Source of the DNA: Microbacteriaceae bacterium
GTDB lineage: Bacteria > Actinomycetota > Actinomycetes > Actinomycetales > Microbacteriaceae
NCBI GenBank assembly: GCA_947444785.1
Contig: CANFBG010000009.1
Span: 1 to 34,386, forward strand
Length of the DNA: 34,386 nt
Direction of reading: 5' to 3'
The notes below the pieces were generated by a model. That model was not told where the DNA came from, did not search any database, and worked only from the letters and a program-made list of their open reading frames with translations. Below are positions 2,907 through 33,843 of this stretch, one piece after another; position 1 is the stretch's first letter; every line of letters starts with the position of its first letter. A program made the position numbers and the translations under genes.

Positions 2907-3449
2907 TCAGCGGATATCGAAGTACTGCTCGCCGATTCGCACGCGCCAGCCACGGGACACCCCGTAGCGCTTGCCCGGTTCTGCCCGCCAGGGTGACGCA
3001 TCCACGGGCTGGATGATCGTTCCGTTGCCGGAACGAAGATCGATGATCCAGAGGCCGGCAGAGTCGACTCCGAATTCCAGGTGCGCCTTGGACACGGTCA
3101 GCTGCGGGTCGACGATTCGCACCAGCTGGGCCTCATCGAACGGGAATGCCGGCACCGGGTTCCGGCCCAGAAAGCCATGGCCGGTCACGGGAAAAGTGTC
3201 ACCCGTGCTGAACTCCAGCACGAAGGGGTCTTCGACCGACCCGGGCAGGGCCGCACCCGCGCCCGAGGAGGACGTGGCCTCCTGAACGGCCGGCGGAAGG
3301 TCAACGGGAACAACCCGCTGGGTGTCCGTGATCGCAGACGGAGCCAATTCTGCCGAGGCGAGAATGGAATTACCGCATTCCCCACAGAAGAACGCACCGG
3401 CCAGTTGAACCGTGCCGCAGGTTCGGCATCGTGAGGTCTGTGGCGTCAT
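2907..3449 (-). CDS. Zinc-ribbon plus FHA-domain protein
   Basis: A 180-residue cytosolic phosphothreonine-reader candidate. The N-terminus carries a zinc ribbon, with Cys pairs C8-C11 and C22-C25. A Ser/Ala/Pro-rich linker follows. The C-terminal FHA domain (about residues 76-178) keeps the family's signature residues: G95-R96, S120 with H123, and N142-G143-T144. In known FHA domains these residues contact the phosphothreonine peptide, so binding should be intact. The ATG overlaps the stop of the transglutaminase-like gene in ATGA, which implies coupled translation. A 104-base gap separates it from the FtsK-type gene. Natural partners would be substrates of the kinase encoded in the same cluster, including the kinase itself. 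The partner is not shown by the sequence. Confidence 0.9.
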   Translation of the reverse strand: MTPQTSRCRTCGTVQLAGAFFCGECGNSILASAELAPSAITDTQRVVPVDLPPAVQEATSSSGAGAALPGSVEDPFVLEFSTGDTFPVTGHGFLGRNPVPAFPFDEAQLVRIVDPQLTVSKAHLEFGVDSAGLWIIDLRSGNGTIIQPVDASPWRAEPGKRYGVSRGWRVRIGEQYFDIR

Positions 3450-5746
3450 CGTCGCGCTGCACCGCTCTGGCCATCGGCCGATCTGGGGCCCGAGTCGGGC
3501 AGGAATCTCCGTGCCAGGCCCAACCTCGCCCGGCGGGCCCGTTCACAGAGCCGCTGCCAGTAATGATAGGCGGGCAAGGTGAGAGGGGAGGCTCTGGCCC
3601 GGAGGCGGCGGGCCGGCGCGAGAGAGCGGAAGAGCCCTTCGCGCAAGAGGTCCGACTCGCGCCACAGGCGTTGAACATCGGCCTCACTGGGCGAAGTCGG
3701 AGCGAAGGCAGCCCGGTCACAGCCCGTGGCGAAGACGAGGAGAGCCTGGCCGCCAAAAGCCTCCGCCATCTCCAATCGGGTGCCCGAGGCGACTCGAGGG
3801 TGCCCGACATCGACACTCGCGTCGAGGTACTCCTGCCATGCTGCCCGGGCCCTGACTCGACCGTCGCCGAGACTCTGCCGACTGCGCCGACGCCGCGACT
3901 TCGCGAGAAGAACCGCGCCAACGGGGCCGAGAACGAGCAGCAGGACGGCCAAGCAGAGGCCCGTGATGCCGAGGACGCGTCCCAGGACAAGCCAGAAGGG
4001 GGCAGGCGTGGCAACGGCCCTCTCCTCTTCATTGGCCAGGGGCACTGTGGCGGCGATGTCCGGTGCCCCCGCGGCCTCAGGCGGCATGATCACTGGCCCC
4101 CGATTCGCCGCCGACACGTTCTCGGGTACCGAATCGGGCACCGGCCGAACGCTCGGCGTCGGGTCGATGCCCAGCCAGGACCCATCGAGGGTCTCCACCT
4201 CGATCCATGCCGAGATGTCGGAGCCCCGCACATCCGTCGCGCCCGGTCCGTCGCCGGCCGGCGCGAAACCGACGACGACCCTGGCCGGGAAGCCCAGCCG
4301 ATGTGCCAGAAGGGCCGCGGCGACGGCATACTGCTCGGAATCCCCGAGCATGGGCACTGCCGTGAACAACTGGGTCAGTCGGTCGGCGCCATGCCCCGAC
4401 CTCGAGAACGGCTCGCCGGCAGCGATGCCGTGACTGACGTACCCGGAAGAGGCAAGCGCCTGAAGCGCCGCGCCGAGTCGAACCCCGGCCGGCGCGTCGG
4501 CAGGCGACGCCGCCAGCAGGAAGCCATCGAGCTCCGGCGGCACACCGGATACCGCCGAGCCGCCTCCGCCTCCGGCTCCGGGCACCAGGTCGGCGACCGA
4601 GGGGATGGCGATCATCTTCGGCAACAGAGCGGTAAGCCGGTAGGAATCCCCCCGGCTGAGGCCGCCGGTATCGAGCGCCATCGTCTCCTCCGACGCATCG
4701 TAGAAGAATCCGTCGGTGTTGGCCTTGGCCGTCGGGCCGGAGAATGCGATCGACTCCAACGGACCCACTCCGGGCACCCAGACCCCCCGGTAGGCGTCCA
4801 CGCGGACACCGAGGGAGACCGGCGTTCCCCCGGCAGCCGCCTGATCGATGTCGAACGGCACCCGCTGGAATTCCCCGGTGCCCGGCCCCGCTACGACCCC
4901 GTCGTAGGACGGCAGCCGAGCGATGCTCATCCTGCCGCCGGCAGGCAACCCGCTGACCTCGAACATCACCGCATTGCTCATCTCAGGCGAAAGATAGGCC
5001 CGGTACCCCGAGAGGGCGCTCGGATAGCTCCGCACATCAAACGGCGGCGCCACGACGTTCCGCACGACCGCTCGCGGGCCGGTCGCAGGAACGGAGCCGA
5101 TCAGGGCCACGGCTCCGCCGACGGACAGCATCAGCACCAGGGTGCCGGCGATAGCTCGCATGGGGAACCGAGGGCCTGGCGCACGCCTGAACCACAGATA
5201 CCAGGCCAGCGTGACAACGAGGATGCCGAGAGAGCTCACGAACTCCAGGAACGACCGCGAGTCGCCCAGTGCGATGCCCGCGAGCAGGACCGCGGCCGGT
5301 GCGATGAAGCCCCACACCGCGTGGCGGCTCCGAAGCGCAACACTGAGCCCGAGCACTGTTGAGCCGAGAACGAGAACGAAGGCCGGAACGAGAAGTGACT
5401 GGTAGGTCCCCACGGGAAGCGAGATCGTGACGAGTTGCTTCCAGCCCAACACGCTTGCCCGCGCCAGCTCGAGAAGGCCCTCTGGCGAAGGCAGGACGGC
5501 CCACACTGTCTGCCCGGGCAGCGTCAGGGCAACGCCGGTGACAAGCCAGAAGCCGACCGTCACCAGAAGCACGGCAAATCCAGGCCAGCGAAACCGGACG
5601 CCGGCCAGGGCGATCGCTGCGCCGCCGATGACTCCCCCCACGACGACCGGGATCACCGCGGGAGTCTGGTACACGGGCCACAGCGGGATCGTACCCAGGA
5701 GCATCGCCGTCACGAAGAAGATACTCGTTCCGCTGGCCCGGCTCAT
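3446..5746 (-). CDS. Membrane transglutaminase-like protein, catalytic Cys and His replaced (probable pseudoenzyme)
   Basis: A 766-residue membrane protein. About seven hydrophobic segments occupy residues 8-217. An extracellular region with a transglutaminase-like core follows (about residues 430-540), then one membrane segment near 583-612 and a basic cytosolic tail. Active relatives have a Cys-His-Asp triad in contexts like GxCEQ(Y/F)A, HAWxE and xDPTP. Here the matching positions are Ser470 (GDSEQYA), Ser512 (SAWIE) and Asp528 (GIDPTP). Two of the three catalytic residues are therefore missing while the fold motifs remain, so a binding or scaffold role is more likely than crosslinking or proteolysis. 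It overlaps both neighbours by four bases (ATGA junctions), between the DUF58 and FHA genes. It corresponds by position to the tgm gene of Bifidobacterium PFNA clusters. Confidence 0.88.
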   Translation of the reverse strand: MSRASGTSIFFVTAMLLGTIPLWPVYQTPAVIPVVVGGVIGGAAIALAGVRFRWPGFAVLLVTVGFWLVTGVALTLPGQTVWAVLPSPEGLLELARASVLGWKQLVTISLPVGTYQSLLVPAFVLVLGSTVLGLSVALRSRHAVWGFIAPAAVLLAGIALGDSRSFLEFVSSLGILVVTLAWYLWFRRAPGPRFPMRAIAGTLVLMLSVGGAVALIGSVPATGPRAVVRNVVAPPFDVRSYPSALSGYRAYLSPEMSNAVMFEVSGLPAGGRMSIARLPSYDGVVAGPGTGEFQRVPFDIDQAAAGGTPVSLGVRVDAYRGVWVPGVGPLESIAFSGPTAKANTDGFFYDASEETMALDTGGLSRGDSYRLTALLPKMIAIPSVADLVPGAGGGGGSAVSGVPPELDGFLLAASPADAPAGVRLGAALQALASSGYVSHGIAAGEPFSRSGHGADRLTQLFTAVPMLGDSEQYAVAAALLAHRLGFPARVVVGFAPAGDGPGATDVRGSDISAWIEVETLDGSWLGIDPTPSVRPVPDSVPENVSAANRGPVIMPPEAAGAPDIAATVPLANEEERAVATPAPFWLVLGRVLGITGLCLAVLLLVLGPVGAVLLAKSRRRRSRQSLGDGRVRARAAWQEYLDASVDVGHPRVASGTRLEMAEAFGGQALLVFATGCDRAAFAPTSPSEADVQRLWRESDLLREGLFRSLAPARRLRARASPLTLPAYHYWQRLCERARRARLGLARRFLPDSGPRSADGQSGAARR

Positions 5747-6957
5747 GCGTTCGACACCGCCCGGCGAAGACCTGCGGCCAGGTCGTCGAGTCGACCGATG
5801 CGCAGAACTCGCAACTCGCCGATCTTCGTCAATCCGGGAAGCGCCCGCGGCTCACAGACCACGACGAGAACCTCGACCCCCACGGGAAACATGTTCGCTG
5901 CAGCCCTGAGAACTCGCGCGGGAATCTGGGACCCACAGACGAGAAACGCCACGGAGACACCCTGCACGCGCTCCGCCGCACCGCGGGAGACCGCCACCAG
6001 CTGGGATGGCCCGTCTCTGAGTGTGATCCGGCTGAGATCGTCCAGCAGCGTCGTCGGGGAACGGATGGCGAGGGCCGTCGTCTCCTCGTCGCGGGTGCCA
6101 CCGGTCCGCCCCCGGCCCTGCCGGAGCCGGGTCCCGGGCCGGTCAGCCCCCCGGCCGGTGATGACGGAAACCGTCCGGGCGTCACGAATGGCTCGCACCC
6201 CGAGGGATCCGACGGCGCTGGCGGCCAGTTCGAATTCGTCAGGGCTCGCATAATCGGCTGCGGAGAGCGACTGCACGATCATGATGTGGCTGCGCCTGGT
6301 CTCCTCGAACTGGCGCACCATGTGGGTCCCCGTCTTGGCAGTGCTCTTCCAATGGATGTAGCGCCGGTCATCGCCCGGAACATACTCTCGGAGGGCATGG
6401 AAGGAGATGTCGCTTGACGTCAGGTCCCGCGTGGGACTGCCCTCGAGGTCGCGGATCAATCCGGTGCTCTGCGCGGGAATAGAGGCGATGAGAGGGTGAA
6501 CGAGGATCTCGATCTGCTCGGATTCGCCCTCGGAGCGACGAAAGAGTCCCAACGGGTCGCGCCGCACCAGTCGAACCGGACCCACGACGAGCACCCCCCG
6601 CCGCTCAGCCGGGATGACCCGCTTGACGTCGGTCGACGAACCTGCCCCTAGAGCGGCTACCCGGATGACTTCGAGCCTGCCGTCCACACTCAGCTCGACG
6701 TCCCGTGGGGCAAGGCGGACCCGTGCGGCCGTGGCAACCCTGACGATGACGCTCGCACTCGAACCGGCCACGGTCACGCGTTCGGGAACGAGCAGGCTGA
6801 CCTGTGCCCCGCGGTTCGGCAGGAGAAACAGCAGGGACACGCACACCGCGATGAGCGCGGCGTAACCCGCTATTCGCAGTTCAACCCAGCCGAGCCCGTA
6901 GCCGCCGCCGAGACCCACGAGCATCACACCGACAAAGACCCGACCCAGGGCGGTCAC
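5743..6957 (-). CDS. DUF58 family membrane protein
   Basis: A 404-residue protein with two N-terminal membrane segments (about residues 7-47). The DUF58 signature spans residues 190-210 (REYVPGDD, then RYIHWKSTA). DUF58 proteins have a von Willebrand A-like fold and are typically encoded between a MoxR AAA ATPase and a transglutaminase-like protein, exactly as here. They are thought to act as a MoxR partner or client at the membrane. The strand that would carry a metal-site DxSxS motif reads IMIVQSLSAA, so a canonical MIDAS is not evident. The start is GTG, overlapping the moxR stop as GTGA. The stop overlaps the next ATG. Family is secure, but molecular function is unknown for the family as a whole. 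Confidence 0.92.
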   Translation of the reverse strand: MTALGRVFVGVMLVGLGGGYGLGWVELRIAGYAALIAVCVSLLFLLPNRGAQVSLLVPERVTVAGSSASVIVRVATAARVRLAPRDVELSVDGRLEVIRVAALGAGSSTDVKRVIPAERRGVLVVGPVRLVRRDPLGLFRRSEGESEQIEILVHPLIASIPAQSTGLIRDLEGSPTRDLTSSDISFHALREYVPGDDRRYIHWKSTAKTGTHMVRQFEETRRSHIMIVQSLSAADYASPDEFELAASAVGSLGVRAIRDARTVSVITGRGADRPGTRLRQGRGRTGGTRDEETTALAIRSPTTLLDDLSRITLRDGPSQLVAVSRGAAERVQGVSVAFLVCGSQIPARVLRAAANMFPVGVEVLVVVCEPRALPGLTKIGELRVLRIGRLDDLAAGLRRAVSNA

Positions 6958-7925
6958 GATCTGAGGCTCTCCCCGGGAACCGCGGTGTCCAGGAGTATCT
7001 GGGCGATGACGCTGTCGGCGGTCACTCCGTCGAATTCCGCCTCGGAATCGAGCACCAGCCGGTGCCCCAGCACTGCCGTTGCAAGAGTCTTCACGTCGTC
7101 GGGGATGACGTAGTTCCGACCCGTTGCGGCGGCCGCGGTCTTCGCCGTGCGAACAAGGGCGAGTGCCGCGCGAACGCTCGCCCCGAGCCGGATCTCCGGG
7201 GCGTCCCTCGTCGCTTGCACCAGGGTCGCGACGTAGTCGTTGATGGCGGGATCGACGTGCACGGTGCGCGCCATCGCCGCGAGCGTGCGAACGTCTGCGG
7301 CGTCGATCATCGGGGACAGCCTGGCGTCATGCGGCCGAAGAGCCGCCCCGGCAAGGATCGACAGGGTCGAGGCGTGATCGGGATAGCCGATCGAGGTCTT
7401 GATGATGAACCGGTCGAGCTGAGCCTCCGGCAGCCGATACGTCCCGGCCTGCTCGATGGGGTTCTGGGTCGCAATCACCATGAAGGGCGCGGGCACCGGA
7501 TGGCTGACGCCGTCGACGGTGACCTGGCCCTCCTCCATGACCTCCAGCAGGGCGGCCTGGGTCTTGGGGCTGGCGCGGTTGATCTCGTCGGCCAACACGA
7601 TATTGGCGAAGATCGGGCCCCGATGAAAGACGAATGCACCGTTTCGCTGGTCATAGATGCTGACGCCGGTGATGTCCCCGGGCAGCAGGTCGGGGGTGAA
7701 CTGGATTCTGCTGCTGGTCCCCCTCACCGTCTCGGCCACCGCGCGGGCGAGCGACGTCTTGCCCGTGCCCGGCACATCCTCCAGCAGCAGGTGGCCCTCG
7801 GAGATCAGCGCCGTGAATGCGAGACGGATGACGTGGTTCTTCCCCACGAGAACGCGCGCCACGCCGGCGACCAGGGCTTCGAATGTCAGAGCGAAGTTCT
7901 CGGCTTCCGCCGTTGTCATCGCCAT
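6954..7925 (-). CDS. MoxR-type AAA+ ATPase
   Basis: A 323-residue cytosolic AAA+ ATPase of the MoxR group, chaperone-like enzymes that help assemble or activate partner complexes, often ones with von Willebrand A-like folds. Walker A is at residues 51-57 (VPGTGKT, K56), Walker B at 111-114 (LADE), and sensor 1 at N155 (IATQNP). An arginine-finger region follows in LPEAQLDRF. Length is normal for the family. The ATG at 7925 is preceded by AAAGGT at a workable distance. The stop overlaps the DUF58 start by four bases, so the two are translationally coupled. In this cluster it most plausibly acts on the DUF58/transglutaminase-like pair, an inference from gene order. Confidence 0.95.
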   Translation of the reverse strand: MAMTTAEAENFALTFEALVAGVARVLVGKNHVIRLAFTALISEGHLLLEDVPGTGKTSLARAVAETVRGTSSRIQFTPDLLPGDITGVSIYDQRNGAFVFHRGPIFANIVLADEINRASPKTQAALLEVMEEGQVTVDGVSHPVPAPFMVIATQNPIEQAGTYRLPEAQLDRFIIKTSIGYPDHASTLSILAGAALRPHDARLSPMIDAADVRTLAAMARTVHVDPAINDYVATLVQATRDAPEIRLGASVRAALALVRTAKTAAAATGRNYVIPDDVKTLATAVLGHRLVLDSEAEFDGVTADSVIAQILLDTAVPGESLRS

Positions 7926-7990: not shown

Positions 7991-10900
7991 TCACGGGGCC
8001 CCATAACGCAGGAGCTGCCCGTTCACGCGGATCTCGATCCATGCATCCGATTTTCCGACGGGAGCATCAAGGGTGCAGGTATTGGCGGCCACAAGACCGC
8101 TTGCGCCCTGGTCTGTGTTCTTGCCGCAACTGAAGATCGCGGTCAGGCCCGAGTTGTTCGGCGCGTTCGTCCAGGAGAACTGACCGAGCGCGGCGGAATA
8201 TGCGAGGCCGTCTATGGCAAGGCTCAGCGACGGCTCGGACGCAACGAAGGCCATCGGGTCGCCGCAGGCTTCGACGAGCGGCCAGACATTGCAGGCCGTC
8301 AGCTGGAATCGGGCCGCGGTTCCGAACGCTGCGCCGGTGAGGCTCCGAACGAAGCCCGAGCCCGGGAAGTTCACGGGCGCCCCTGCCGGAGATCCCCTGT
8401 CGTCGAGGCGCTGGAGGATGTACTTATCAGCAGCCGGCCTGACGCCATCGACGCGATAGTCCCACTCGGTGCCGTTGAAGGCCATTGCGCCGTCGATCGA
8501 GGTGACTGAGCCGGGAGACGGATAGGGCGTGACCGAAACGACGGCCGACGCTGTGCAGCCGCCCCTGTTGTAGCCCCAGACGACGAAGTTGTACCGGGTG
8601 TCCCTGTCGGTGAGGCCCGGGAAAGACACGTCGGTGGACGCGCGACCGACTGCCTGCTGCTCGATGACCGTTCCCCCGTCCCTCGGGGCGATGAGCGCGC
8701 CGGGCGCCGGCGATTGGACCCGACACGCCTGATCGCCCGAGGGCACGGCGGAAACGCTGAGCCGCTGCACGAAGTAGCCGAGAACCGTGTCCCCGTTCGC
8801 CGAGAACGGAGAGAAAGCCACATCGATGCCGCCCGATGGGTTCGCGAAGGCACGCACGTCTCCGGGCTGGGGCGCCCCGAACGGCACCGCTGTCGTCTCT
8901 GCCGGGTTCCAGGACGCGAACGAGGCGAGGGAATCGTTCTTTGCGAGCACACTGACGGCCGCCGGAACGCCGTTCTCGAGCCCGGTGACCGTGGCCGAAC
9001 AGGTCTCGGTGCACGAGGCAGCGGACACATCCTGAACGGGCCGACCGCCGATCTCGATCGTGTAGCCCTGAACAGCGCTTCCGCCGTCGGGCACGACCGC
9101 CGGACGCCACGACAGGAGCAGGGCGCCGTCCAGCGGTGCCGCACGGATGTCTGCCGGGGTGAGCGGAACGATGTCTGAGTAGTACAGGCCGGATGCGCTG
9201 GCGCGCTCGCTCAGCCCAACGGCATTTCGTGCGGCCACCTGAATCGTCGCCCGGTAGGCAGCACCATTGCCCGGAGTGGGCACTGTGCAGCGTGTCGCGG
9301 CGCACACCGTGGAACCGAGGCTCTCTCCCCCGGGTGACACGAGGGTGATCTCAAACCCCTGGATGGCCGAGTTGTTGCTGGTTCCCGGGCTGAAGGCGAT
9401 AGCCAGCGAGCGATCTCCGAACCCGGTCACCCGAACCCCGGTGACGGGGGCCGGTCGGTCGGTGACGGATATCCGCACTGTCCCCCAGGCCGCGCGATCG
9501 GGATCGCCCGTCGCATCCAGCACCTGGTACTGCACCGACACGTCACCGGGCGGCGTATTGGCGCTGGCGAAAACCGAGAGAACACGCTTGTCGGCGCTGG
9601 GTGTGACAGACAGGCCGGCGGGCAGGCTGGCGGCGTCGATCCCCCGCACCGCGACGACGGTCAACGCCTCGCCCGGGAATGGATTCGTGGCGAGGTCATT
9701 GGCCAGAACGTCCACGACGGTGCTCGCTCCCCGCACGGCGACAGCCTGATCCGGAGCGGGGATCGCGCGGGGCCTGGTGGAGGCCACCACGGCCAGCTCG
9801 ATTCGCCCGGCCCGCCCCTCGCCCGCATCATGCCTTACGCCGATGGCCACCTGGCTGCGAGAGCCCTTCGCCGTCTGATTGCCCGCGGTGATAGACAACG
9901 ACTGGCCCGAGAGGCTCGTGCTGAAGCCGACGGGTGCGGGGTCCAGCGTCGAGAAGACCAGCCGGGCCTGATCGGCGGCATAGGGGTAGGCGGTCAGCTT
10001 CGTCAGGTCGAACACCTTGGTCTGGCCGGGCTCGAACTCGACCAGCGCACCGTTGAATGTCGGCGGCTGGTTGGTGCTGGGCACGACGCTGATCGGCAGA
10101 ACGAGGGTGGCGACGTTGGTGCCGTCGGTCACCTCAAAGGAGATGGATGCCGGACCGAAGTAGCCGGAAGCACTGGTGAAACGAAGCCTCTGATCGCCAT
10201 CGACGAGGCTCTGGCCGTCGGAATGCACCGCGCGCACGAGATTCGGATCGGTCAGGCGCACCGTGCGAGAAGAGCCGGCAACGACATACTGGGCGATGTC
10301 GATCGTCTTCTCTTGACCGCTGGTCGCCGTTATCGCCTCGGCTCCCTTGCGCAGTTGAGGGAGGGCATCTCGAAGTCCCGGGACCCAGAGGAATCCCTGG
10401 GATCGAACGCTCGGGTCATCCGGATGCGTGACGGCGAACGGGATGACCTGTCGAGTCTCACCGATCGAGACCCGAATTCGATTTCCCGCGGTCACCTCCG
10501 CAGATCCCGAATAGCCGGGAAGAACACTCAACAGAAGCGAGCGGCTCGGCCCGTCCGCAAAGAACACCCGGCTGAGAACGTCGACGTCCACAGTGCTCCG
10601 CTCGGCGATATCCGACAGGGTAAGCACCGTGTCGCTGACGACCGGCCTGCCGAGTGGAGCCTGGCTGCTGACGATCACGGTCAGAAACGACGAGCTGGTT
10701 CCGCCGCGGCCGTTATCGATCTCGTAGACGAAGCCATACCGGCCCTCTGTCGCCCCGGCGCTGACGGAGACCGTCCTGCCGTCTGTCGTTGCGGCGGGAA
10801 CGGCCCCGGCAGGCCCCCCGGCGCCGGTGATGCCCGAGATCGACAGTGTTCCGCCATCCGGGTCGGAATCGTTCTCCATCACGGGCACCGTGACCGACCT

Positions 10901-13876
10901 GCCGGGCCTCATCTCGACCTCGTCGGGCGCCGCATAGGGATTTCTTGCACCGTCGGACCTCGGGCCGATCCCAACCCGGATGCTGCCGGTTGCCCGCGCT
11001 CCCAGATTGTCGATGACGGAGTAGGTGAAGGTATCGGTGCCGGTGGCGTAGTCGCCCGCCCGGTACTGGATGAAGGCGGTTCCGGTCTCCTCGACGCTGC
11101 CCTTCTCGGGAGCCGACGTCTCACCGAGGAGCTGGACGGAGTCTCCGTCGGGATCGATGCCGGAGAGAGGGACCGGGATTCGAACGCTCGAGCCCGCAAT
11201 CACGCGGGCAATGAGGCTCTGGGCAACGGGTGCCGCGTTCGCCGCGGGGTTGGCCTCGCGAACCGAGATTCGAACGACGGCCGTGGAGAACTGGCCGTCC
11301 GGCGCCTCGACCCGATAGGTCACGGCGTAATTGCCGGGGCTGTCCGGGGCGAGGTAGCGCAGAACGCGGCCCGATACGAATGCCAGCCCGCCCGAGTCGC
11401 CGGGCCCGGCAACGAGCTGCGGCGCAAGAGTGAGGGCATCCCCGTCCGGTTGAACATCGTTTTCCAGAACCGGGATGTCCACGACGTCTCCGACCCTGAC
11501 GGCGGCCGAATCGTCGGTGGCCACGGGAGGCTGGCGGCTTGCGGGTTCCGGGATCTCGATCACGGAAACCTCGCCCGCGGCGCTCGCGAGCCCGTTGCTG
11601 ACGGTGTAGCCGAACGTCAGCGTGCCCGACTCGAGAGGTGCCGTGAGAGTCACCCGAATCAGTCTCTGCTCGAGGATCTCGACCCGCGCCCTGCCGGAGG
11701 CTGCATCCTTCAGGCCGGTGATGATGAGAACACCGCCGGCGGGGTCGAAGTCCCCGGCGAGAACGTCGACGGACATCGCCTGCGACGCTCGCACGAAGGC
11801 CGTGTGGGGAATGGTCACGGGAATCGTTGCCGCGTCCGTCGGGGCGATGACCTCGACGCGAACCACCCCGGTCGCCGTCACGCTCGAATCGGTGACCGAG
11901 TACTCGAGGTACGTCGTTCCCACGACGTCGGCCGTCAGAAGGAAGGTGCCCGCGGCGTAGTCGGGGGTTATGGCGACAGACTGCCGGGCCGGGACCGCCG
12001 CAAGCCTGACGACGCCCGAACCGCCATGAACGTGACCGAGCGGGCTCACGAGGGATTCGACACCGAGCGTGACCCTCTGAACGAATGGATCCGCCGATAT
12101 CGGCACGGTTCCCGGGGCGAGAACGGTCACCGACAGCACGCCAGCGCCCGCGAGGACTCCGTCGCTGACGGTCAGGGCCACCTGAGTAAGTCCCGGCACG
12201 GCGGCGGTGTCCGCATAGGTGACACGCCCGTCCGGCAGATAGGTGACGCCGGCCTGGCCGCTTCCCACGGCGGACTGGAGATAGATCGGGTCGCTGTCGG
12301 GGTCGACCCAGTCGCCGAGGACCGCAGTACTTGCGCGCGACGATGCGGCGACGGAAAGGCTTGTGGGCTGACGCTGGACCGGGGCGGAGTTCTCGGAGTC
12401 ACGCCGTACCGAGACCGTGACCGTCGCCGTCGCCGTGCCGCCTCGACCATCACTGATCGAGTAGTCGAAACTCACAACCCCTGTTGCCGAGGCAGGCAGC
12501 GTGATTCGAAGTTGCTGTCCCTGGCTCACCGGCTCGACCGTGAATCCCGCCCCGACCGGGACCCGCACCGCGTCGATCACGATCACGTCCGAGTTGGGGT
12601 CGTAGTCGTTCGCCAGCACATTCAGGATGCTTGCCCGGCCAGGCCGCGCGCCCACCGCGTCCGCCACGGCGACCGGCGGCTGCTGCGCGATAACGGTCGG
12701 GGGCGGCGCCGTGCTGCCGGCCTCCTCCGTCGGCGTCTGGGTCTTGTTCTGCTCGAGGAGTTCGGCCCAGTTCTGGATCAGCCGGTTCCCCTTCTGAACG
12801 TCCCAGGCGGCCCCCGCCTGCACCTCGTTCAGGAGCACCCGCGAGCCATTCACCCTGAATTCGAGCCGGCCTCCGGACGGCATCCGCGACAGGGTGCCCG
12901 AGGCCACCACCGGCGTTTCGTTTCGATCGCCGGAACAGCGGCTCCACGATCGACCATCGGTCCACGCCGCGAATTCGCAGCCTGCCACACTCACCGAGGC
13001 AGCCGGGTTTCCCGTGTGTCCGTCCGAGAGCACACTGACCGTTCGCTCGGCGAGAGAGACGGAGAGCAGGGATCCTGACGTCGACACAAGCACGGCATCG
13101 GCTTCCGGCCCAGGCCTCTGCAGGACAGCCTGCGCCAGATCCGTCGTCGATGTTTCGAGCGGGATGCTGCCATCCCGGGTCACGACGATTCCCGCCGACC
13201 GATCGAGGAGAACCCAGCGGTCGCCCACTGCCGAGATCGTCACAGCGCTCCTCGAGTCAAGCGCCACGGCCGACTGGTCTGCCGCCCGGGCCTGGGCCTC
13301 CGGCCTGATTGTGAAGACGGACTGGCCGCTCACCGAGACGGCGAACAGAGTGGAGTCCTCCGCGAGCGCGACGTCGCCTCCCACACCCAGTGTCAGATCC
13401 GGCAATGCCGACTCGTCGAATCTGGCCAAGGAGTCGGGGGTCATCAGCCACACGTTGCCGGTCGACGGGGAGAACACAACGCTGCGATTTCCCGCCTGAA
13501 GCACCTCGACCTCCCCCGGGGGCAGGGGAACGGACTCCGCGACGCTGGCGCTCGCCGGGTCGACGATCAGCGCCGCGCTGCCACTGGGGTCGACGGCGAC
13601 GACCGCGCCCGCGCCCTGGGCGAGTTCGATCGCGCCGGCTGTCGTGGGCACGACGGTATTCAGCTGGGAGATCTCGACATTGACCCGGCCGACGGCGCGC
13701 TGCGACTGGTTGGTGATCCAGACCGACGCATCCGCGTTGTCAATCTTCTGTGCCGTGTAGCCCTCGGATGTGACGGCGACCGTCACGATCAGGGTCGCCA
13801 CCACGACGCAGACGATCAGTCCTGGAATCGTCCGGCGGTGCGATGCGTGCCATGCCCGCCAGCGATCACGCATCAT
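7991..13876 (-). CDS. Giant membrane-anchored protein with Ig-like and fibronectin III repeats (PFNA fn3-type)
   Basis: Residues are numbered from an upstream GTG (13894), which gives 1967 residues. The ATG at 13876 overlaps the kinase stop as TGATG and is taken as the more likely coupled start (1961 residues). A signal-anchor helix lies at about 23-42. A region rich in beta strands (about 55-370) may form a propeller. From about 405 to 1478 come roughly nine Ig-like or cadherin-like repeats. Several of these carry (N/D)DxDPxxD-type turns, such as ANDYDPNSD, WVDPDSDP and ENDSDPDGG, which suggest calcium sites. Three fibronectin III domains follow (about 1480-1570, 1577-1670, 1673-1790), then one or two related C-terminal domains. 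All 12 Cys lie in the N-terminal region (306, 320) or in the C-terminal third. The topology places nearly the whole chain outside the membrane. Adhesion, wall association or ligand sensing are possible roles. None is proven. Confidence 0.88.
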   Translation of the reverse strand: MMRDRWRAWHASHRRTIPGLIVCVVVATLIVTVAVTSEGYTAQKIDNADASVWITNQSQRAVGRVNVEISQLNTVVPTTAGAIELAQGAGAVVAVDPSGSAALIVDPASASVAESVPLPPGEVEVLQAGNRSVVFSPSTGNVWLMTPDSLARFDESALPDLTLGVGGDVALAEDSTLFAVSVSGQSVFTIRPEAQARAADQSAVALDSRSAVTISAVGDRWVLLDRSAGIVVTRDGSIPLETSTTDLAQAVLQRPGPEADAVLVSTSGSLLSVSLAERTVSVLSDGHTGNPAASVSVAGCEFAAWTDGRSWSRCSGDRNETPVVASGTLSRMPSGGRLEFRVNGSRVLLNEVQAGAAWDVQKGNRLIQNWAELLEQNKTQTPTEEAGSTAPPPTVIAQQPPVAVADAVGARPGRASILNVLANDYDPNSDVIVIDAVRVPVGAGFTVEPVSQGQQLRITLPASATGVVSFDYSISDGRGGTATATVTVSVRRDSENSAPVQRQPTSLSVAASSRASTAVLGDWVDPDSDPIYLQSAVGSGQAGVTYLPDGRVTYADTAAVPGLTQVALTVSDGVLAGAGVLSVTVLAPGTVPISADPFVQRVTLGVESLVSPLGHVHGGSGVVRLAAVPARQSVAITPDYAAGTFLLTADVVGTTYLEYSVTDSSVTATGVVRVEVIAPTDAATIPVTIPHTAFVRASQAMSVDVLAGDFDPAGGVLIITGLKDAASGRARVEILEQRLIRVTLTAPLESGTLTFGYTVSNGLASAAGEVSVIEIPEPASRQPPVATDDSAAVRVGDVVDIPVLENDVQPDGDALTLAPQLVAGPGDSGGLAFVSGRVLRYLAPDSPGNYAVTYRVEAPDGQFSTAVVRISVREANPAANAAPVAQSLIARVIAGSSVRIPVPLSGIDPDGDSVQLLGETSAPEKGSVEETGTAFIQYRAGDYATGTDTFTYSVIDNLGARATGSIRVGIGPRSDGARNPYAAPDEVEMRPGRSVTVPVMENDSDPDGGTLSISGITGAGGPAGAVPAATTDGRTVSVSAGATEGRYGFVYEIDNGRGGTSSSFLTVIVSSQAPLGRPVVSDTVLTLSDIAERSTVDVDVLSRVFFADGPSRSLLLSVLPGYSGSAEVTAGNRIRVSIGETRQVIPFAVTHPDDPSVRSQGFLWVPGLRDALPQLRKGAEAITATSGQEKTIDIAQYVVAGSSRTVRLTDPNLVRAVHSDGQSLVDGDQRLRFTSASGYFGPASISFEVTDGTNVATLVLPISVVPSTNQPPTFNGALVEFEPGQTKVFDLTKLTAYPYAADQARLVFSTLDPAPVGFSTSLSGQSLSITAGNQTAKGSRSQVAIGVRHDAGEGRAGRIELAVVASTRPRAIPAPDQAVAVRGASTVVDVLANDLATNPFPGEALTVVAVRGIDAASLPAGLSVTPSADKRVLSVFASANTPPGDVSVQYQVLDATGDPDRAAWGTVRISVTDRPAPVTGVRVTGFGDRSLAIAFSPGTSNNSAIQGFEITLVSPGGESLGSTVCAATRCTVPTPGNGAAYRATIQVAARNAVGLSERASASGLYYSDIVPLTPADIRAAPLDGALLLSWRPAVVPDGGSAVQGYTIEIGGRPVQDVSAASCTETCSATVTGLENGVPAAVSVLAKNDSLASFASWNPAETTAVPFGAPQPGDVRAFANPSGGIDVAFSPFSANGDTVLGYFVQRLSVSAVPSGDQACRVQSPAPGALIAPRDGGTVIEQQAVGRASTDVSFPGLTDRDTRYNFVVWGYNRGGCTASAVVSVTPYPSPGSVTSIDGAMAFNGTEWDYRVDGVRPAADKYILQRLDDRGSPAGAPVNFPGSGFVRSLTGAAFGTAARFQLTACNVWPLVEACGDPMAFVASEPSLSLAIDGLAYSAALGQFSWTNAPNNSGLTAIFSCGKNTDQGASGLVAANTCTLDAPVGKSDAWIEIRVNGQLLRYGAP

Positions 13877-15246
13877 CAGGATGCGTCTGCGCACTTCTCG
13901 GCGCTGGCCGGGCCTGCGCGCCCGGCCCGGGTCACGGCCACCGTGACGCAGATCTGGCGCCCTGGCCCGGCGGAGGCCGTGAACCCGACGCCACGCTGGA
14001 CGCTGACGGTTCCGTCACCGGTCGTGACAACGTAGCTGTCGCCTTCGGCCAGGCCAGGATCCTGCCAATCAAACCGAACGATCCCCGCGCCTGACACGGT
14101 CGAGATCTCGCCTACCCGCGGGATTCCCGGGCCGGACGTGACGCTCAGAGAACCCGTGGCGAATACGAGACCCGCCCCGGCCCCCACGACCGCGAGCCCC
14201 AGCACACCGAAAAAGATGGCTCGGCTGCGGCGGGATTTCGTCCCCGCGGCCAGGTTGCGCCTGCCCCTCTGCCGAGGCATTGGCTCCCGCTCCGCTGTCG
14301 GCGCCCTGACGGTCCGCTCCGGAGACGGGTCCCCGGGCCCGGCAGCCAGGCTGGCCCCCCACGGCTCGAGCTCACTCTCCAGTGGCGTCTGGGCCAGACC
14401 GAGTGATGTCTCTATTCCCTGGTATTCGCGGACGAGAGCGAGAACGCTCTCCTGGCGATCGGCCGGATCCTTGGCCATCGAGCGAGCGAGCGAGTTCTCC
14501 AGGGCCGCAGGAACGTCCGCTCGAGACGTCGGCGGCAGCGCCGTTGCTCGGATCCGACGGATCAGCTCGGTCTGGGTGTAGGGCTCCCGGGTCTCGCCGG
14601 CCAGCCTCTCGAACGGCGATCGTCCCGCAAGCAGCGAGTAGACGGTGGCACCGAAGGAGTAGATCTCCGACTCGTGCGTGCCCGTTGTTTCTTCGGCCAG
14701 CACCTCGGGAGCCGACCACGGAACCGAGAGTCCGACCGCATCGGAGGGTCCCTGCCGGTGTGTCCTGCCTGCAATGCCGAAATCCGACAGGACCGGGTTG
14801 CCGTAGCTGGTCAGGAGAATATTTCCCGGCTTCACGTCCCGGTGCAGGATTCCCAGCTGATGGGCCGCATGAACGGCGCTGCCGATCTTTACCGCGACAC
14901 GCAGCACATCCGCCACGGGCAACTGTTCCCGGCGATAGCGCTGACCCAGGCTGGTCACGCAGTACTCCATCACGAGGTACGGTCGACCGTCCTGCGAGAC
15001 CCCGGCCGCATAGACCGTGAGGATCGACGGATGAGAACTCAGCGTCGCCATGAGGTTCGCCTCCGTGACGAACATTCGGCGAACGTCCTCCGTGACGGCC
15101 TCCGGAACCATGACCTTCACGGCAACCGTTCGACGAGGCATGTCCTGCTCGAATAGGAAGACGTCGGCGAATCCACCGGACCCCAAGACCCGCAGGAAAG
15201 AGAATCCCGCCAGCGCCGGTGGAGCCGAGGGCAGTCTCTTCGCCAT
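13876..15246 (-). CDS. Transmembrane Ser/Thr protein kinase (PknB/Hanks type)
   Basis: A 456-residue receptor-like kinase. The catalytic domain (about residues 12-280) is complete: glycine loop GSGGFADV (22-29), K44 (VAVK), E63, HRDVKPGN (135-142) with D137, DFG at 155-157, and APE at 179-181. Activation-loop Ser/Thr residues (S168, S174) are candidate phosphorylation sites. A charged juxtamembrane linker leads to one membrane helix (about 343-363). The short extracellular part is FN3-like and has a Cys pair (C433, C452). There are no PASTA repeats, so it is not the cell-division PknB. It starts nine bases after the PP2C stop, and its own stop forms TGATG with the giant FN3 gene. Likely substrates are proteins read by the two cluster FHA proteins. 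It matches pkb2 of Bifidobacterium PFNA clusters by position. Confidence 0.94.
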   Translation of the reverse strand: MAKRLPSAPPALAGFSFLRVLGSGGFADVFLFEQDMPRRTVAVKVMVPEAVTEDVRRMFVTEANLMATLSSHPSILTVYAAGVSQDGRPYLVMEYCVTSLGQRYRREQLPVADVLRVAVKIGSAVHAAHQLGILHRDVKPGNILLTSYGNPVLSDFGIAGRTHRQGPSDAVGLSVPWSAPEVLAEETTGTHESEIYSFGATVYSLLAGRSPFERLAGETREPYTQTELIRRIRATALPPTSRADVPAALENSLARSMAKDPADRQESVLALVREYQGIETSLGLAQTPLESELEPWGASLAAGPGDPSPERTVRAPTAEREPMPRQRGRRNLAAGTKSRRSRAIFFGVLGLAVVGAGAGLVFATGSLSVTSGPGIPRVGEISTVSGAGIVRFDWQDPGLAEGDSYVVTTGDGTVSVQRGVGFTASAGPGRQICVTVAVTRAGRAGPASAEKCADAS

Positions 15247-15255
15247 GGGGTTTGC

Positions 15256-16083
15256 CTAGGTTCGCTGGCGGGTGGCCGGCGAGGCCAGCGCATCCGTCGT
15301 CGGAGCCTCGACGTCAAGCACCAGGACGGTGACATTGTCGCGACCGCCGTTGGCCAGCGCTGCGGCAACCAGCTCGCCGACGGCGGTCTCCGGCGAGGGA
15401 GCGATTCTAAGGTAGTGCGCGATCCCCGTCTCGTTCAGCTCCTTGGTCAGCCCGTCGGAGCAGATCAGGATGCGCTGGCCGGGCTCGATGGGCAGCAGAG
15501 AGTAATCGGGGACCGGACGTTCGTGGAAGCCGACCGCCCGGGTGATGACATTGCTGTCGGGGTGCGTCTCGGCCTCATCCCGCGTGATGAGCCCCGCCGC
15601 GACAAGCTCCTGCACGACGGAGTGATCCACGGTTATCTGCTGCAGCCGGTCGTTCTCGAAGAAGTACACCCGGGAGTCGCCGATGTTGAACACGACCCAC
15701 TGGGCCTCCTCATCGATGATGGCCATCGCGAGACCCGTTACCGTCGTGCCCGTTCCCAGCGTGGTCTCATCCCCCACGCGGTCGATGTCCTCGACGGCAG
15801 CGTCGAGGGCGGCTTCGATCTGGGACGTGGTGATGAACTCACTGCCCGAGATCGCACCGATCCGGGTCACAACGGCATCACTCGCGACGTCCCCAGCCGC
15901 GTGGCCGCCCATACCGTCGGCGATGGCGAAGACCGGCGGGTTGGCGACGACGCTGTCCTCGTTCACCGCACGTCGGTTCCCCCGGTCAGAGATGAACGAC
16001 CAGTTCAGGGTCACCGCGCGGGAGCCCGCGCCGCCGGGAAGCGACACAGTGAGCTGTGCTGCACTGTCACCGATCTGGGTCAC
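15256..16083 (-). CDS. PP2C-type Ser/Thr protein phosphatase
   Basis: A metal-dependent phosphatase that would reverse the neighbouring kinase. With the GTG at 16083 the protein is 275 residues. This start has AAGGAG six bases upstream and lies 19 bases after the upstream FHA gene. A longer in-frame start at 16143 would overlap that gene and adds a tail unlike the family. Signature motifs are all present: SDRG (D33), NED (42-43), ADGMGGHAAGD (D56), FNIGDSRVY, CSDGL (D210) and GGRDNVTV (D249). These include the Asp residues that bind the two metal ions, so activity is expected. No membrane segment is present, so it is cytosolic. It sits between an FHA gene and the kinase gene, a standard phospho-signalling arrangement. 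Confidence 0.93.
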   Translation of the reverse strand: MTQIGDSAAQLTVSLPGGAGSRAVTLNWSFISDRGNRRAVNEDSVVANPPVFAIADGMGGHAAGDVASDAVVTRIGAISGSEFITTSQIEAALDAAVEDIDRVGDETTLGTGTTVTGLAMAIIDEEAQWVVFNIGDSRVYFFENDRLQQITVDHSVVQELVAAGLITRDEAETHPDSNVITRAVGFHERPVPDYSLLPIEPGQRILICSDGLTKELNETGIAHYLRIAPSPETAVGELVAAALANGGRDNVTVLVLDVEAPTTDALASPATRQRT

Positions 16084-16102
16084 GAGACTCTCCTTGAGGA
16101 AT

Positions 16103-17098
16103 TCACACAGACTTCTTGAGTACTTCGAATACGTTGCCGTCACCGACGTCGATCCTGCTTAGATCCGGGGTGACGAGCGAATCCCCCTGCCGTAACTTTA
16201 TCCGAGACCCGTCGGGCAGGGTGACAGTTGTTCCATTGGTCGAGGCGAGGTCGGTCACCACAACGTTCTCGCCCACCAGCGCAATTTCGGCGTGACTCGC
16301 CGAGACCATCGATGAACGCGACTCTACCCGGAGGATCATTGGCGCTCGGGATCCGGGAATTCGACGCGGTCGCGGATCGCGACCGATGACGATGGGGCCG
16401 AGGATCTCAATCGGCGATCCACCGCTGGAACGTATCTCGAAGCGCGACGCGGGACGGGTTTCTTTCGACGCTGCGCCCGGCGCCTCGTCCCGCGATGAAC
16501 CGGCGGAGGGACAGGGCATTTTCGACGGAGGCGCCACAAGCCTCGTCTCCTCGAATGCCGAGGGGTCGAACGAGGTACCTGCCGTGTCTGTTCCCGGGCC
16601 CAGCGCCAGGGAGTACTCGGAATCCAGCTGCCAGATCCCCTGACGCCCGCTGGCAGCACCCACGAGAACCGCACCGACGGCGTTGAAGGTGACCAGGTGC
16701 CAGGGCACAAGGCCCTGCGCGGAGACCCGGGCACTGCCCCCGACCGAGTGGACGTCCACGACGGCGCCACCTCGCACGACAATCGTCACCCGCGGCGATT
16801 CTCCGTGCATCCCCGCTTCGGCGAAGACCACAGAGAAGGACGCGACCGCGTCGACGCCGATAAGGGGGATCGCCTGGACGACCGATTCGGTGCAGGCATC
16901 GGGGGAATCAAGTTCCGATTGCACCCTGACCTGGATTCGCCGGGGGGTCGACGACGGAAGCGTGACGAGTGCCCGCGCGGCCCCGAATACGACCATGTCC
17001 TCCCAGGCGCCCGCGACCTTTCGACCTGGGCCCAAGGTCATCCGGCCGACGAAGGGCAGGGCAGCGGCCTCATCCCCCCTGATATCGGCACCCTGCAC
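16103..17098 (-). CDS. FHA-domain protein with unrecognised N-terminal domain
   Basis: A 331-residue protein, first gene of the minus-strand cluster. The C-terminal FHA domain (about residues 228-325) has G239-R240, S267 with H269, and N288-G289-T290, the residues expected to hold phosphothreonine. Residues 1-180 form a beta-rich domain that I do not recognise. It includes a stretch around 130-175 that looks like the AIM24-type or TRAP-like fold sometimes seen in such proteins, but this is a weak impression. A Ser/Pro/Ala-rich linker joins the two. The proposed start is GTG 17098, without a clear Shine-Dalgarno; an in-frame ATG at residue 20 is an alternative. No membrane segment was found. 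It probably recruits phosphorylated partners of the kinase two genes downstream. Confidence 0.82.
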   Translation of the reverse strand: MQGADIRGDEAAALPFVGRMTLGPGRKVAGAWEDMVVFGAARALVTLPSSTPRRIQVRVQSELDSPDACTESVVQAIPLIGVDAVASFSVVFAEAGMHGESPRVTIVVRGGAVVDVHSVGGSARVSAQGLVPWHLVTFNAVGAVLVGAASGRQGIWQLDSEYSLALGPGTDTAGTSFDPSAFEETRLVAPPSKMPCPSAGSSRDEAPGAASKETRPASRFEIRSSGGSPIEILGPIVIGRDPRPRRIPGSRAPMILRVESRSSMVSASHAEIALVGENVVVTDLASTNGTTVTLPDGSRIKLRQGDSLVTPDLSRIDVGDGNVFEVLKKSV

Positions 17099-27196: not shown

Positions 27197-28678
<1,482 letters not shown>

Positions 28679-28708
28679 CTACGAAAAGAATCGCTGATGG
28701 ATTCGGGT

Positions 28709-29608
28709 CTACTTGGCCGAGCTAAGGGCATCGGCGCCGCCGACGATCTCGGAAATCTGCTGGGTGATCTCAGACTGCCGCGCGTTGTTCGCGAGCCGGG
28801 TGAAGTCTCGGATGAGGCCATCCGCGTTGTCGCTCGCTGCCTTCATCGCCTTCTGCGTCGCCGCATGCTTGGCCGCAGCGGACTGCAGCATCGCGTTGAA
28901 GAGGCGACTCTCGATGTACACGGGAAGCAGGGAGTCGAGAACCTTCTCGGCATCCGGCTCGAAGTTGTACAGCGGGAGAACGGTCTTGGAGTCGAGCTCC
29001 TCGACGCCTTCGACGACCTCGAGCGGAAGCAGTCGAACGACCTCGGGCTCCTGCACCAGCATCGAGATGAAGCGGTTGTAGCAGACGTGGATCTCGTCTA
29101 CACCGCCCTCGGACGCGGGCGTCAGGAACGACTCGAGAAGAGCGTCGCCGATCTCCTTCGCCGTCTCGAACTGGGGCGAGTCGGTGCCACCCGTCCACGT
29201 GCGCACCGACGCGCGGCGACGGAACGCGAAGTACGCGCTCGCCTTGCGGCCGATGAGGAAGTAGACGACCTCCTTGCCTTGGCTTCGGAGCAGCTCAGCG
29301 AGCTGCTCCGAGGCCTTGAGCACGTTGGAGTTGAAGGCACCGGCGAGACCGCGGTCGCTGGAGAAGATGACGATCGCAGCGCGCTCGATCTTCTCCGGCT
29401 CGGTGGTCAGCACGTGGTCGACGTTCGAGTACGACGCAACAGCCGAGACTGCCCGCGTGATCGCCCGAGAATACGGCGTGGATGCTGCAACCCGTGCCTG
29501 CGCTTTTTGAATGCGCGAGGCAGAGATGAGCTCCATGGCCCTGGTGATCTTCTTGGTCGTCTGAGCAGACTTGATCTTCTGCCGGTAGACCCGAAGTTGC
29601 GCTCCCAT
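28709..29608 (-). CDS. atpG: ATP synthase F1 subunit gamma
   Basis: The 299-residue rotor shaft. The N-terminal helix ([20 protein letters not shown], then [12 protein letters not shown]) and the C-terminal helix ([20 protein letters not shown], then [17 protein letters not shown]) are the two coiled-coil strands that turn inside the alpha/beta ring. [14 protein letters not shown] is the conserved Rossmann-like segment. The sequence has a mid-domain insertion of the sort found in actinobacterial gamma subunits (around residues 150-200). The gene starts three bases after the atpA stop. Confidence 0.97.
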
Positions 29609-29611
29609 TAG

Positions 29612-31249: not shown

Positions 31250-31310
31250 CGTTTTTCCTTTTTCTGCCGGGGATGCTCTCCACGGCGGGTAGCGAGTAAG
31301 CCGTTACGGG

Positions 31311-32108
31311 CTAACCAGCGAGCTGGAGTCTCAAGTCGTTGATTCGGGAGGACAGGCTGCCGTCGATCACGTCGTCGCCGACCTGAATGCGCAGTCCCCC
31401 GATGACCTCGGGGTCGAAAACCTGTCGGATCGAGAGCGGGCGGCCGTAGAGGGACGCGAGGCCCTTCTGCAGGCGCTCGAGCTGACCCGGAGTGATGGGG
31501 GCGGCGGAGGTCACGGTGGCGATCGCCTTGCCGCCCTGGTCGGCGACGATGCGGGCTGCCTCGCGGAGAAGCTCCCCGATTCGGCGCGACCGCGGCTGGG
31601 CCACGAGGTGGCTGACGATTGCCAGAGTCTGGCCGCTCGCCTTGTCCGCCAGCAGGCGGTTGACTAGTGACAGCTTCGCCGAGGTCTCGCCCAGCTTGGA
31701 ACCGAGCGCAAGCTCGAGCTCCGGGCTGGAGGAGACGGCCTCACGGAACGACGCGATCTCGTCCTCGACCGAAACCGAGGCGGGAGCCGAGTCCGCGAGG
31801 ACGCGAATGCCGATCTCCTCGATGGCGACCAGGACATCGTCACTGGTGGACCAACGGGCCCCGGCGATGTCCGAAAGGACGGCCAAGGCCTCGGGGGCCA
31901 CACTCGTGCCAAACACCCTGGTGACCACGAGCGCCTTCGCCTTGGCGTCCGCGCTCGGGTTGGCAATCGCCGACCTGAGGGATGCGGACTCCCCGATGAT
32001 TCGTCCCGCGGCGAGCAACTGCTCGCCCGTCTGAAGCGTCGCGACTGACGCCTGGGCGCTCAGCCGTGTCCTGGTCTCAGCCAGTGCTTCTCTGGTCGCA
32101 CTACCCAT
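31311..32108 (-). CDS. atpH: ATP synthase F1 subunit delta
   Basis: A 265-residue peripheral-stalk protein that links the F1 head to subunit b. The start ATG 32108 (MGSATREALAETRTRLSAQA) has GGAGG upstream and lies four bases past the atpF stop. A frame open to 32186 would overlap atpF. It is longer than E. coli delta (177 residues); the extra N-terminal part is usual in Microbacteriaceae and other actinobacteria. The C-terminal family motif is RVGDDVIDGSLSSRINDLRL (reading from QVGDDVIDGS). It is predicted all-helical in the first half. Confidence 0.95.
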   Translation of the reverse strand: MGSATREALAETRTRLSAQASVATLQTGEQLLAAGRIIGESASLRSAIANPSADAKAKALVVTRVFGTSVAPEALAVLSDIAGARWSTSDDVLVAIEEIGIRVLADSAPASVSVEDEIASFREAVSSSPELELALGSKLGETSAKLSLVNRLLADKASGQTLAIVSHLVAQPRSRRIGELLREAARIVADQGGKAIATVTSAAPITPGQLERLQKGLASLYGRPLSIRQVFDPEVIGGLRIQVGDDVIDGSLSSRINDLRLQLAG

Positions 32109-32112
32109 GTGG

Positions 32113-32694
<582 letters not shown>

Positions 32695-32720
32695 CTAACT
32701 TGGTTGTCGGAAGACAGGGA

Positions 32721-33843
<1,123 letters not shown>

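Follow-up and report, generated by a model that had tools for sequence, protein, structure and literature searches.

PFNA-type operon with a giant surface protein gene in Microbacteriaceae and its putative link to type VII-like secretion

What does a gene for an anchored surface protein of nearly 2000 residues do between the genes of a protein kinase and a MoxR ATPase? The question is raised by contig CANFBG010000009.1 of a Microbacteriaceae bacterium (assembly GCA_947444785.1), of which we analyzed positions 1 to 34,386 (hereafter the window, meaning this whole stretch of 34,386 nucleotides). An earlier sequence-only reading had suggested that the product of positions 7991-13894 is a calcium-stiffened rod of nearly 2000 residues carrying a disulfide-bonded, ligand-binding tip. 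Its size stands, as the region is one open frame of 1967 codons on the minus strand. That reading left the operon context aside, and this context changes what the protein is likely to do. Three points are new: the giant protein is a member of the FN3 protein family of the bifidobacterial PFNA operon, its operon includes an EccC-like ATPase gene, and the family ranges more widely than has been printed. The reading we favor, with a probability of roughly 0.5, is that the giant protein spans the cell wall as the outer arm of a secretion or surface system that is type VII-like and controlled by the kinase.

The operon and its bifidobacterial counterpart

The giant gene lies within a minus-strand operon that runs up to the contig end. 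The conservation of its partners was read from a scan of named genomes with a 23-row alignment as the query (A1, 23 of the 25 homologues, with G018 and G044 left out), from which the best 80 of 430 relatives were taken. Of these loci, 79 are from Microbacteriaceae and one (L066) is titled only 'Actinomycetota bacterium'; no named Bifidobacterium record is among them. The named-genome scan with the single giant protein as the query gave no match. A further alignment, A4, holds 26 of 28 loci and the window. In operon order, and with the share of the named loci that carry the gene where the locus has room for it, the features are:

16103..17098, minus strand: first operon gene, FHA-domain protein with one transmembrane (TM)-like segment (Pfam FHA, 1e-6; 69/72 loci)
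15256..16143, minus strand: PP2C-type Ser/Thr phosphatase, PrpC-like (Pfam PP2C_2, 2.6e-11; NCBIfam Stp1, 205 bits, cut-off 230; 67/72 loci)
13876..15246, minus strand: Ser/Thr kinase, Pkb2-like, with a TM segment (344-362) and a short outer domain (Pfam Pkinase, 1.4e-39; HRD and DFG; 74/74 loci)
7991..13894, minus strand: giant surface protein gene of the PFNA 'FN3' type (single open frame, 1967 codons, GTG at 13894, stop at 7991)
6954..7925, minus strand: MoxR AAA+ ATPase (Pfam AAA_3, 2.9e-62; 72/72 loci)
5743..6957, minus strand: DUF58 protein (Pfam, 7e-11; 70/70 loci)
3446..5746, minus strand: membrane protein with a transglutaminase-like domain (Pfam; Ser where TgpA has Cys and His; 68/68 loci)
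2907..3449, minus strand: FHA protein with a zinc-ribbon-like start that is under the Pfam cut-off (Pfam; 60/66 loci)
1..2802, minus strand: EccC/EssC-like FtsK-family ATPase, cut by the contig end (NCBIfam EssC, 215 bits; two TM-like segments near the start; one Walker A; 39/63 loci)

The conserved inner set of kinase, phosphatase, FHA, MoxR and DUF58 proteins suggests phosphorylation-controlled assembly. In the proposed mechanism, the kinase, PP2C and FHA proteins would switch the system by phosphorylation inside the cell, and MoxR and DUF58 would remodel or assemble it. Such phospho-switching, like the wall-spanning position and the export role considered below, is what we infer for this organism.

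The listed start codon of the giant gene (GTG at 13894) falls within the kinase gene. Translation probably begins at the ATG at 13876, giving a protein of 1961 aa, since this codon overlaps the kinase stop as TGATG, six codons past the GTG. The outer domain of the kinase (13876-15246, minus strand) has two Cys near its end and is FN3-like by eye. A plus-strand frame of 1082 codons within the giant gene (9830-13078) has no Pfam match and was taken as the shadow of a GC-rich coding strand.

The order of the core genes is that of the PFNA operon of Bifidobacterium, described as kinase, FN3 giant, MoxR, DUF58 and transglutaminase (PMC8430577; PMC10688814; PMC12607495; PMC6803598), with the genes pkb2, fn3, aaa-atp, duf58 and tgm and, in some cases, prpC and fha. 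In B. longum GT15 the PFNA genes form one transcript and Pkb2 phosphorylates MoxR (PMC8430577). The operon has been published as confined to bifidobacteria and as a sensor of host cytokines, with FN3 domains perhaps derived from eukaryotes (PMC10688814).

Genome G056 connects the two operons. Its giant protein is 30% identical to that of the window over 1659 aligned columns (E 2e-153), and its locus reads kinase, giant, MoxR, DUF58, transglutaminase-like, PP2C, one gap and FHA. G056 was judged to be a Bifidobacterium solely from a phosphoketolase that is near-identical to 3ai7/8io6, the organism of which we take to be B. longum. Because of the same gene order and the 30% identity to G056, the window operon belongs to the PFNA family, whose range exceeds the printed one. 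The likeness extends to the proteins themselves: in the available text of the PFNA papers the FN3 protein has 1956-1994 aa (1967 in the window) and an N-terminal TM segment, with FN3 at 1494-1671 in B. longum (approximately 1481-1672 in the window) and a C-terminal region to approximately 1990. In contrast to the PFNA operon, that of the window has a PP2C and one FHA gene upstream of the kinase and an EccC-like ATPase gene downstream, and its giant protein is predicted to carry five FN3-like domains and an N-terminal propeller. The word propeller occurs zero times in the available text of one paper on the FN3 protein (PMC12607495).

PFNA-order operons thus occur beyond bifidobacteria, in 79 named Microbacteriaceae loci (among the best 80 of 430) and in other families. 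Homologues of the giant protein were found in 45 of the 60 genomes of a relatives sample, the window's own included, and the transglutaminase-like gene lies downstream of the giant gene in 23 of the 24 loci laid out from that sample. In a search at class level with residues 40-510 as the query, 22 of 197 genomes matched, again with the window's own; of the others, 16 cover the propeller and 5 match the Ig part only. Two giant homologues stand in tandem at G003:C4:297359-308667, and the homologue at G016:C1:408291-414129 is split into several adjacent frames, by decay or sequencing error. Identity of the window's giant gene is 43-44% to those of G001-G007, listed under the same genus, versus 50% to that of G033, from another genus; G033 being closer than the listed congeners possibly reflects transfer or a doubtful genus label.

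The Microbacteriaceae with this operon include Cryobacterium, Agromyces, Herbiconiux and Curtobacterium, which, as far as we know, are not gut commensals. Their presence argues against the operon existing to sense host cytokines, as the model published for PFNA holds (PMC8430577). The WSxxS 'cytokine receptor' motif of the first FN3 domain points in the same direction. At the aligned place the window protein has no WSxPS and reads GLSERAS, and in 25 proteins the Trp is present in only three (two from the bifidobacterial family), versus G-x-S in 24 and G-x-S-x-P-S in 11; in our view, the G-x-S place is an ordinary FN3 turn. An unaligned pattern count, which gave WSxxS-type motifs in 9 of the 25 proteins, was discarded in favor of the aligned place. 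We therefore reject the window protein as a cytokine receptor, the motif being absent at the aligned place. As a general explanation the immune-sensor model appears incomplete and highly improbable; an adaptation of the tip in Bifidobacterium only is possible, and the original job of the operon was probably not to talk to the human immune system. With PFNA-type operons in Microbacteriaceae and other families, partly beside a secretion ATPase, the claim of cytokine sensing restricted to bifidobacteria can be tested anew, and in non-gut models.

Architecture of the giant protein

The wall-spanning arm proposed above would be built from four regions:

13772..13828, minus strand: signal-anchor or TM segment, residues 23-41 (hydropathy peak 2.80)
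12755..13750, minus strand: predicted beta-propeller, residues ~49-380 (AlphaFold2 pLDDT 92.3; Foldseek 1l0q; VIA Z 21.5)
9455..12682, minus strand: approximately 11 predicted Ig-like (Big_9 / tandem-95) modules, residues 405-1480, without Cys (Pfam, NCBIfam, conserved Pro)
7994..9454, minus strand: five FN3-like domains, residues 1481-1967 (three clear FN3; two FN3-like by strand pattern)

The hydrophobic segment peaking at residues 23-41 bears out the anchor helix of the sequence-only reading. Only one other segment exceeds the threshold of 1.6 (574-592, at 1.69), and it falls within the Ig-like array. As the N-terminus is basic and residues 23-41 form the single strong hydrophobic segment, the positive-inside rule predicts that nearly the whole chain, including the C-terminus, is extracellular. 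The short N-terminus would then lie inside the cell, with one helix as the anchor and the propeller directly outside the membrane.

A propeller had been considered possible, and modeling agrees with it. Residues 44-500 reached a mean AlphaFold2 pLDDT of 92.3 (66 homologues in the alignment), and the first 337 residues of this model match propellers with VIA Z of 18.9-21.5 among the 50 matches listed, which include WD40, cd1 nitrite reductase and designed eight-bladed propellers. The top Foldseek match is 1l0q, an archaeal surface-layer protein with a propeller and a PKD domain; it shares with the window protein the order of propeller and then Ig-like domain, but at an identity of only 12%. A low-confidence linker (approximately 384-403) joins the propeller to the Ig-like array.

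For this array, about nine Ig/cadherin-like repeats had been proposed. Their type is supported by Pfam Big_9 (8 stretches, E 5.8e-71), by Cadherin_4/5 and by NCBIfam tandem-95, and their number has to be raised: conserved Pro at 407, 505, 598, 692, 790, 889, 986, 1084, 1172, 1278, 1375 and 1481, spaced by 88-106 residues and chosen by us from 45 Pro positions conserved at >=90%, suggest about 11 modules. Acidic positions are conserved as well (for example D531/D533/D535 and D914/D916/D918), which is not proof of Ca2+ binding.

The FN3 domains named by the earlier reading were recovered by a profile against solved structures (titin, 3.6e-70) and by the AlphaFold2 model of residues 1375-1967 (pLDDT 95.4, 67 homologues), in which the last Ig module is followed by three FN3 domains; these give a VIA Z of 16.8 to the titin FN3 pair 3lpw. 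Pfam fn3 matched both homologues that were scanned whole and gave no match in the window protein at E 0.1. The two last sandwich domains are read from the strand pattern, and the VIA comparison barely tests them. The alignments behind the models took 66 of 78 (N-terminal part) and 67 of 75 (C-terminal part) usable loci. In the arrangement that we favor, the approximately 11 Ig-like modules would form a thin rod across the cell wall that holds out a disulfide-braced FN3 tip; at approximately 4 nm each, some 16 modules would give a rod of approximately 60 nm, which would be long enough to span the wall of a Gram-positive cell.

The bracing concerns the Cys residues, of which the earlier reading had counted 12, all in near pairs. 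There are 13, with C29 in the membrane segment. In 81 aligned proteins (the window and the 80 named loci; rows gapped at both places skipped) the others form these candidate pairs:

12935..12979, minus strand: Cys pair 306/320, propeller, on one hairpin by the model strands (79/81 rows; 24/25 in a wider set)
9287..9304, minus strand: Cys pair 1531/1536, first FN3 domain, the most conserved pair (79/81 rows; 25/25 in the wider set)
8999..9013, minus strand: Cys pair 1628/1632, variable, both or none (alignment, tree; 38 both, 41 none, 0 single)
8555..8725, minus strand: Cys pair 1724/1780, 56 residues apart (both in 79/81 rows)
8264..8293, minus strand: Cys pair 1868/1877, variable, both or none (alignment, tree; 69 both, 9 none, 0 single)
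8075..8128, minus strand: Cys pair 1923/1940, variable, both or none (alignment, tree; 49 both, 27 none, 0 single)

In one further row C320 is present and C306 is not. On a tree of the propeller and Ig part only, which leaves out the C-terminal part, the pairs 1628/1632, 1868/1877 and 1923/1940 changed state at least 6, 5 and 6 times, with no single row. The number of non-membrane Cys is even in 73 of 74 near-full-length rows, and the central repeats are free of Cys in 71 of the 74, as the earlier reading had noted for the window protein. That the outside Cys behave as pairs, gained and lost together, is strongly supported by these alignments. Against pairing stand the unequal counts in the 25 proteins of the wider and more distant set (C1628 in 1 and C1632 in 5; C1724 in 13 and C1780 in 11; C1868 in 15 and C1877 in 14; C1923 in 9 and C1940 in 7), which may be due to misalignment in poorly aligning regions or to real single Cys.

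The expectation that paired Cys come close in predicted structures is supported for four pairs by the strand registers of the AlphaFold2 models, which place 306/320, 1531/1536, 1628/1632 and 1868/1877 each on one hairpin or turn. In sequence, 1724/1780 is a long-range and not a near pair. What remains of the earlier picture is an anchored, predicted-extracellular rod whose tip and propeller Cys are gained and lost in pairs; disulfide formation would follow from this pattern, and binding of a ligand at the tip is conceivable. For bench checks, the both-or-none pairs offer a ready disulfide map.

The EccC-like ATPase and the case for a type VII-like system

The link with EccC suggests an export role. 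The window EccC-like protein aligns with a full EccC (BLASTP 9e-79) from the TM pair, across the whole first ATPase domain and into the second. It has no FHA at its N-terminus; just before its gene stands a separate FHA gene. Full FHA-bearing EccC/EssC-like proteins at two paralogous loci reach 537 and 525 bits with NCBIfam EssC, both under the cut-off of 778. When the protein with 537 bits was used as the query in the 60 genomes of the relatives sample, 19 of the 26 EccC places at >=1000 bits lay within 15 kb of a giant-gene homologue, in 12 genera and 7 families, with 7 of the 19 from one genus. WXG100-type matches were found at <=4 kb of EccC in 8 of 9 genomes checked (G001, G018, G033, G043, G045, G047, G058 and G044), four of them over the Pfam cut-off and G044 under it. 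Single WXG100 genes over the cut-off also occur away from the operon, in the two genomes of the bifidobacterial family (G056:C16:245467-245721 and G039:C1:864486-864740) and in the window's own genome (G000:C50:3069-3320).

With the type VII systems (ESX/T7SSa and T7SSb), the paralogous loci thus share an EccC/EssC-like ATPase with FHA and WXG100 beside the operon, and they differ in EccC scores under the curated cut-offs and in that EccB, EccD and EssB were mostly not found in 12 genomes. EccB matched in one of the 12 (under the cut-off), EccD in four (one over the cut-off) and EssB in none; in the window's genome none of the three matched. EccB and EccD lie on another contig in G043; in G001, EccD is under the cut-off, on a contig other than that of the EccC-linked copy, and G018 has weak partial EccD matches only. 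As the EccB and EccD searches were silent in all 14 control genomes (EssB matched in B. subtilis), weak sensitivity is possible. To our knowledge, the giant rod, MoxR, DUF58 and the transglutaminase-like protein are not parts of known type VII systems. In the mechanism that we favor, the EccC-like ATPase would power export of small WXG100-type substrates, where present, and the bifidobacterial PFNA operon would be the same system with EccC not adjacent.

Several observations weigh against an outer arm of a secretion system. The window EccC-like protein is cut by the contig end, has one Walker A and scores 215 bits against the EssC cut-off of 778. In the survey, 7 of the 26 places at >=1000 bits are not near a giant homologue, nor are 13 of the 15 at 300-1000 bits (2 near) and 38 of the 46 under 300 bits (8 near; two split pieces merged). 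The EccC-like gene is missing in 24 of the 63 named loci with room, and no EccC was found beside the Bifidobacterium copy (G056). One giant homologue, G041a (G041:C11:754349-759277), stands without any partner gene around it. As to the substrates, G041 has no WXG100 match beside its EccC, the single match in the window's genome is on another contig (G000:C50), and no WXG100 gene is visible beside the window EccC-like gene because the contig ends inside that gene. Six of the 9 genomes (G033, G041, G044, G045, G047 and G058) gave no EccB or EccD match. A search of open-access PMC gave no paper that connects PFNA with type VII secretion; the one paper in which both terms occur applies 'type VII' to ABC transporters.

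In a plainer explanation, the giant protein is a surface adhesin or receptor whose disulfide-braced FN3 tip binds a cell wall polymer, a neighbor cell or a host molecule, the kinase, MoxR and the other partners regulate its display, and EccC is an unrelated neighbor. All named loci with room carry the core set from kinase to transglutaminase-like protein, which is not so for EccC. The tip is the part most variable in Cys, with identities of 23-47% versus 31-47% for the propeller part. A bifidobacterial FN3 fragment binds TNF-alpha in vitro (PMC10688814), and FN3 has been described as mediating the adhesion of B. bifidum S17 (PMC10688814; PMC12607495). The strong EccC linkage across 7 families of the order argues against this explanation, as do the FHA proteins, which belong to the operon in both types. 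We regard the adhesin explanation as credible, although somewhat short of an even chance.

A bolder form of the secretion reading takes the operon as the envelope half of an undescribed type VII-like system of Actinomycetales, with an FHA-bearing EccC motor and WXG100 substrates and without EccB, EccD and EssB. The propeller-rod protein, DUF58/MoxR and a dead transglutaminase would replace the known channel and wall-crossing parts, and the Bifidobacterium PFNA operon would be a reduced descendant. We offer this tentatively and consider it rather doubtful. On a midpoint-rooted tree, two rows from the bifidobacterial family group with most full-EccC rows (support 89), with G045 on the other side; this grouping is not used as proof of descent.

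The transglutaminase-like protein and related gene neighborhoods

The conserved loss of the catalytic Cys in the transglutaminase-like protein questions an enzyme activity that has been assumed. In the solved domain 6g49, a protein-glutamine gamma-glutamyltransferase that we take to be TgpA, a Cys and a His, presumably the catalytic ones, align with Ser470 and Ser512 of the window protein. At the aligned place the Cys is absent in 24/24 and 69/69 rows, G056 and G039 included (93 rows but 90 distinct loci, as three are held twice: G009 = L057, G015 = L063 and G030 = L106), and the His is kept in 4/24 and 1/69. Judged from its sequence, the 'transglutaminase' would be catalytically dead by a conserved loss, a membrane protein that binds and does not cut. 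The PFNA work in PMC8430577 names it a transglutaminase or a presumed cysteine protease, and the available text carries no mention of the Cys loss.

A transglutaminase-like membrane protein next door is also what would be expected of a module for cell-envelope maintenance like the mycobacterial ripA-moxR1 operon; here the rod and this protein would organize layers of peptidoglycan or glycan, with the kinase in control. A likeness in gene organization between PFNA and the mycobacterial moxR operon, with a MoxR-DUF58 parallel, has already been noted (PMC12067865). The absence of the TgpA Cys and His speaks against such a role, as does the lack of any peptidoglycan-binding Pfam domain in the window giant protein and the two homologues scanned whole, and we consider envelope maintenance improbable.

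MoxR also adjoins a propeller protein in the MoxR-vWA-beta-propeller ternary systems (Kaur et al., 2020), described mostly from bacteroidetes, planctomycetes, verrucomicrobia and proteobacteria (PMC7159879), and the window MoxR scores 45 bits with bpMoxR (cut-off 27). However, it fits AAA_3 far better (209 bits), the place of the vWA protein is taken by a partner with DUF58 as its only Pfam match, and the propeller is predicted to lie outside the membrane. Assignment to these systems was rejected, bpMoxR not being the best family and a vWA partner being absent.

Elsewhere in the window, positions 27197-33843 (minus strand) carry ordinary ATP synthase subunit genes (Pfam ATP-synt_ab twice, ATP-synt, OSCP, ATP-synt_B and ATP-synt_A).

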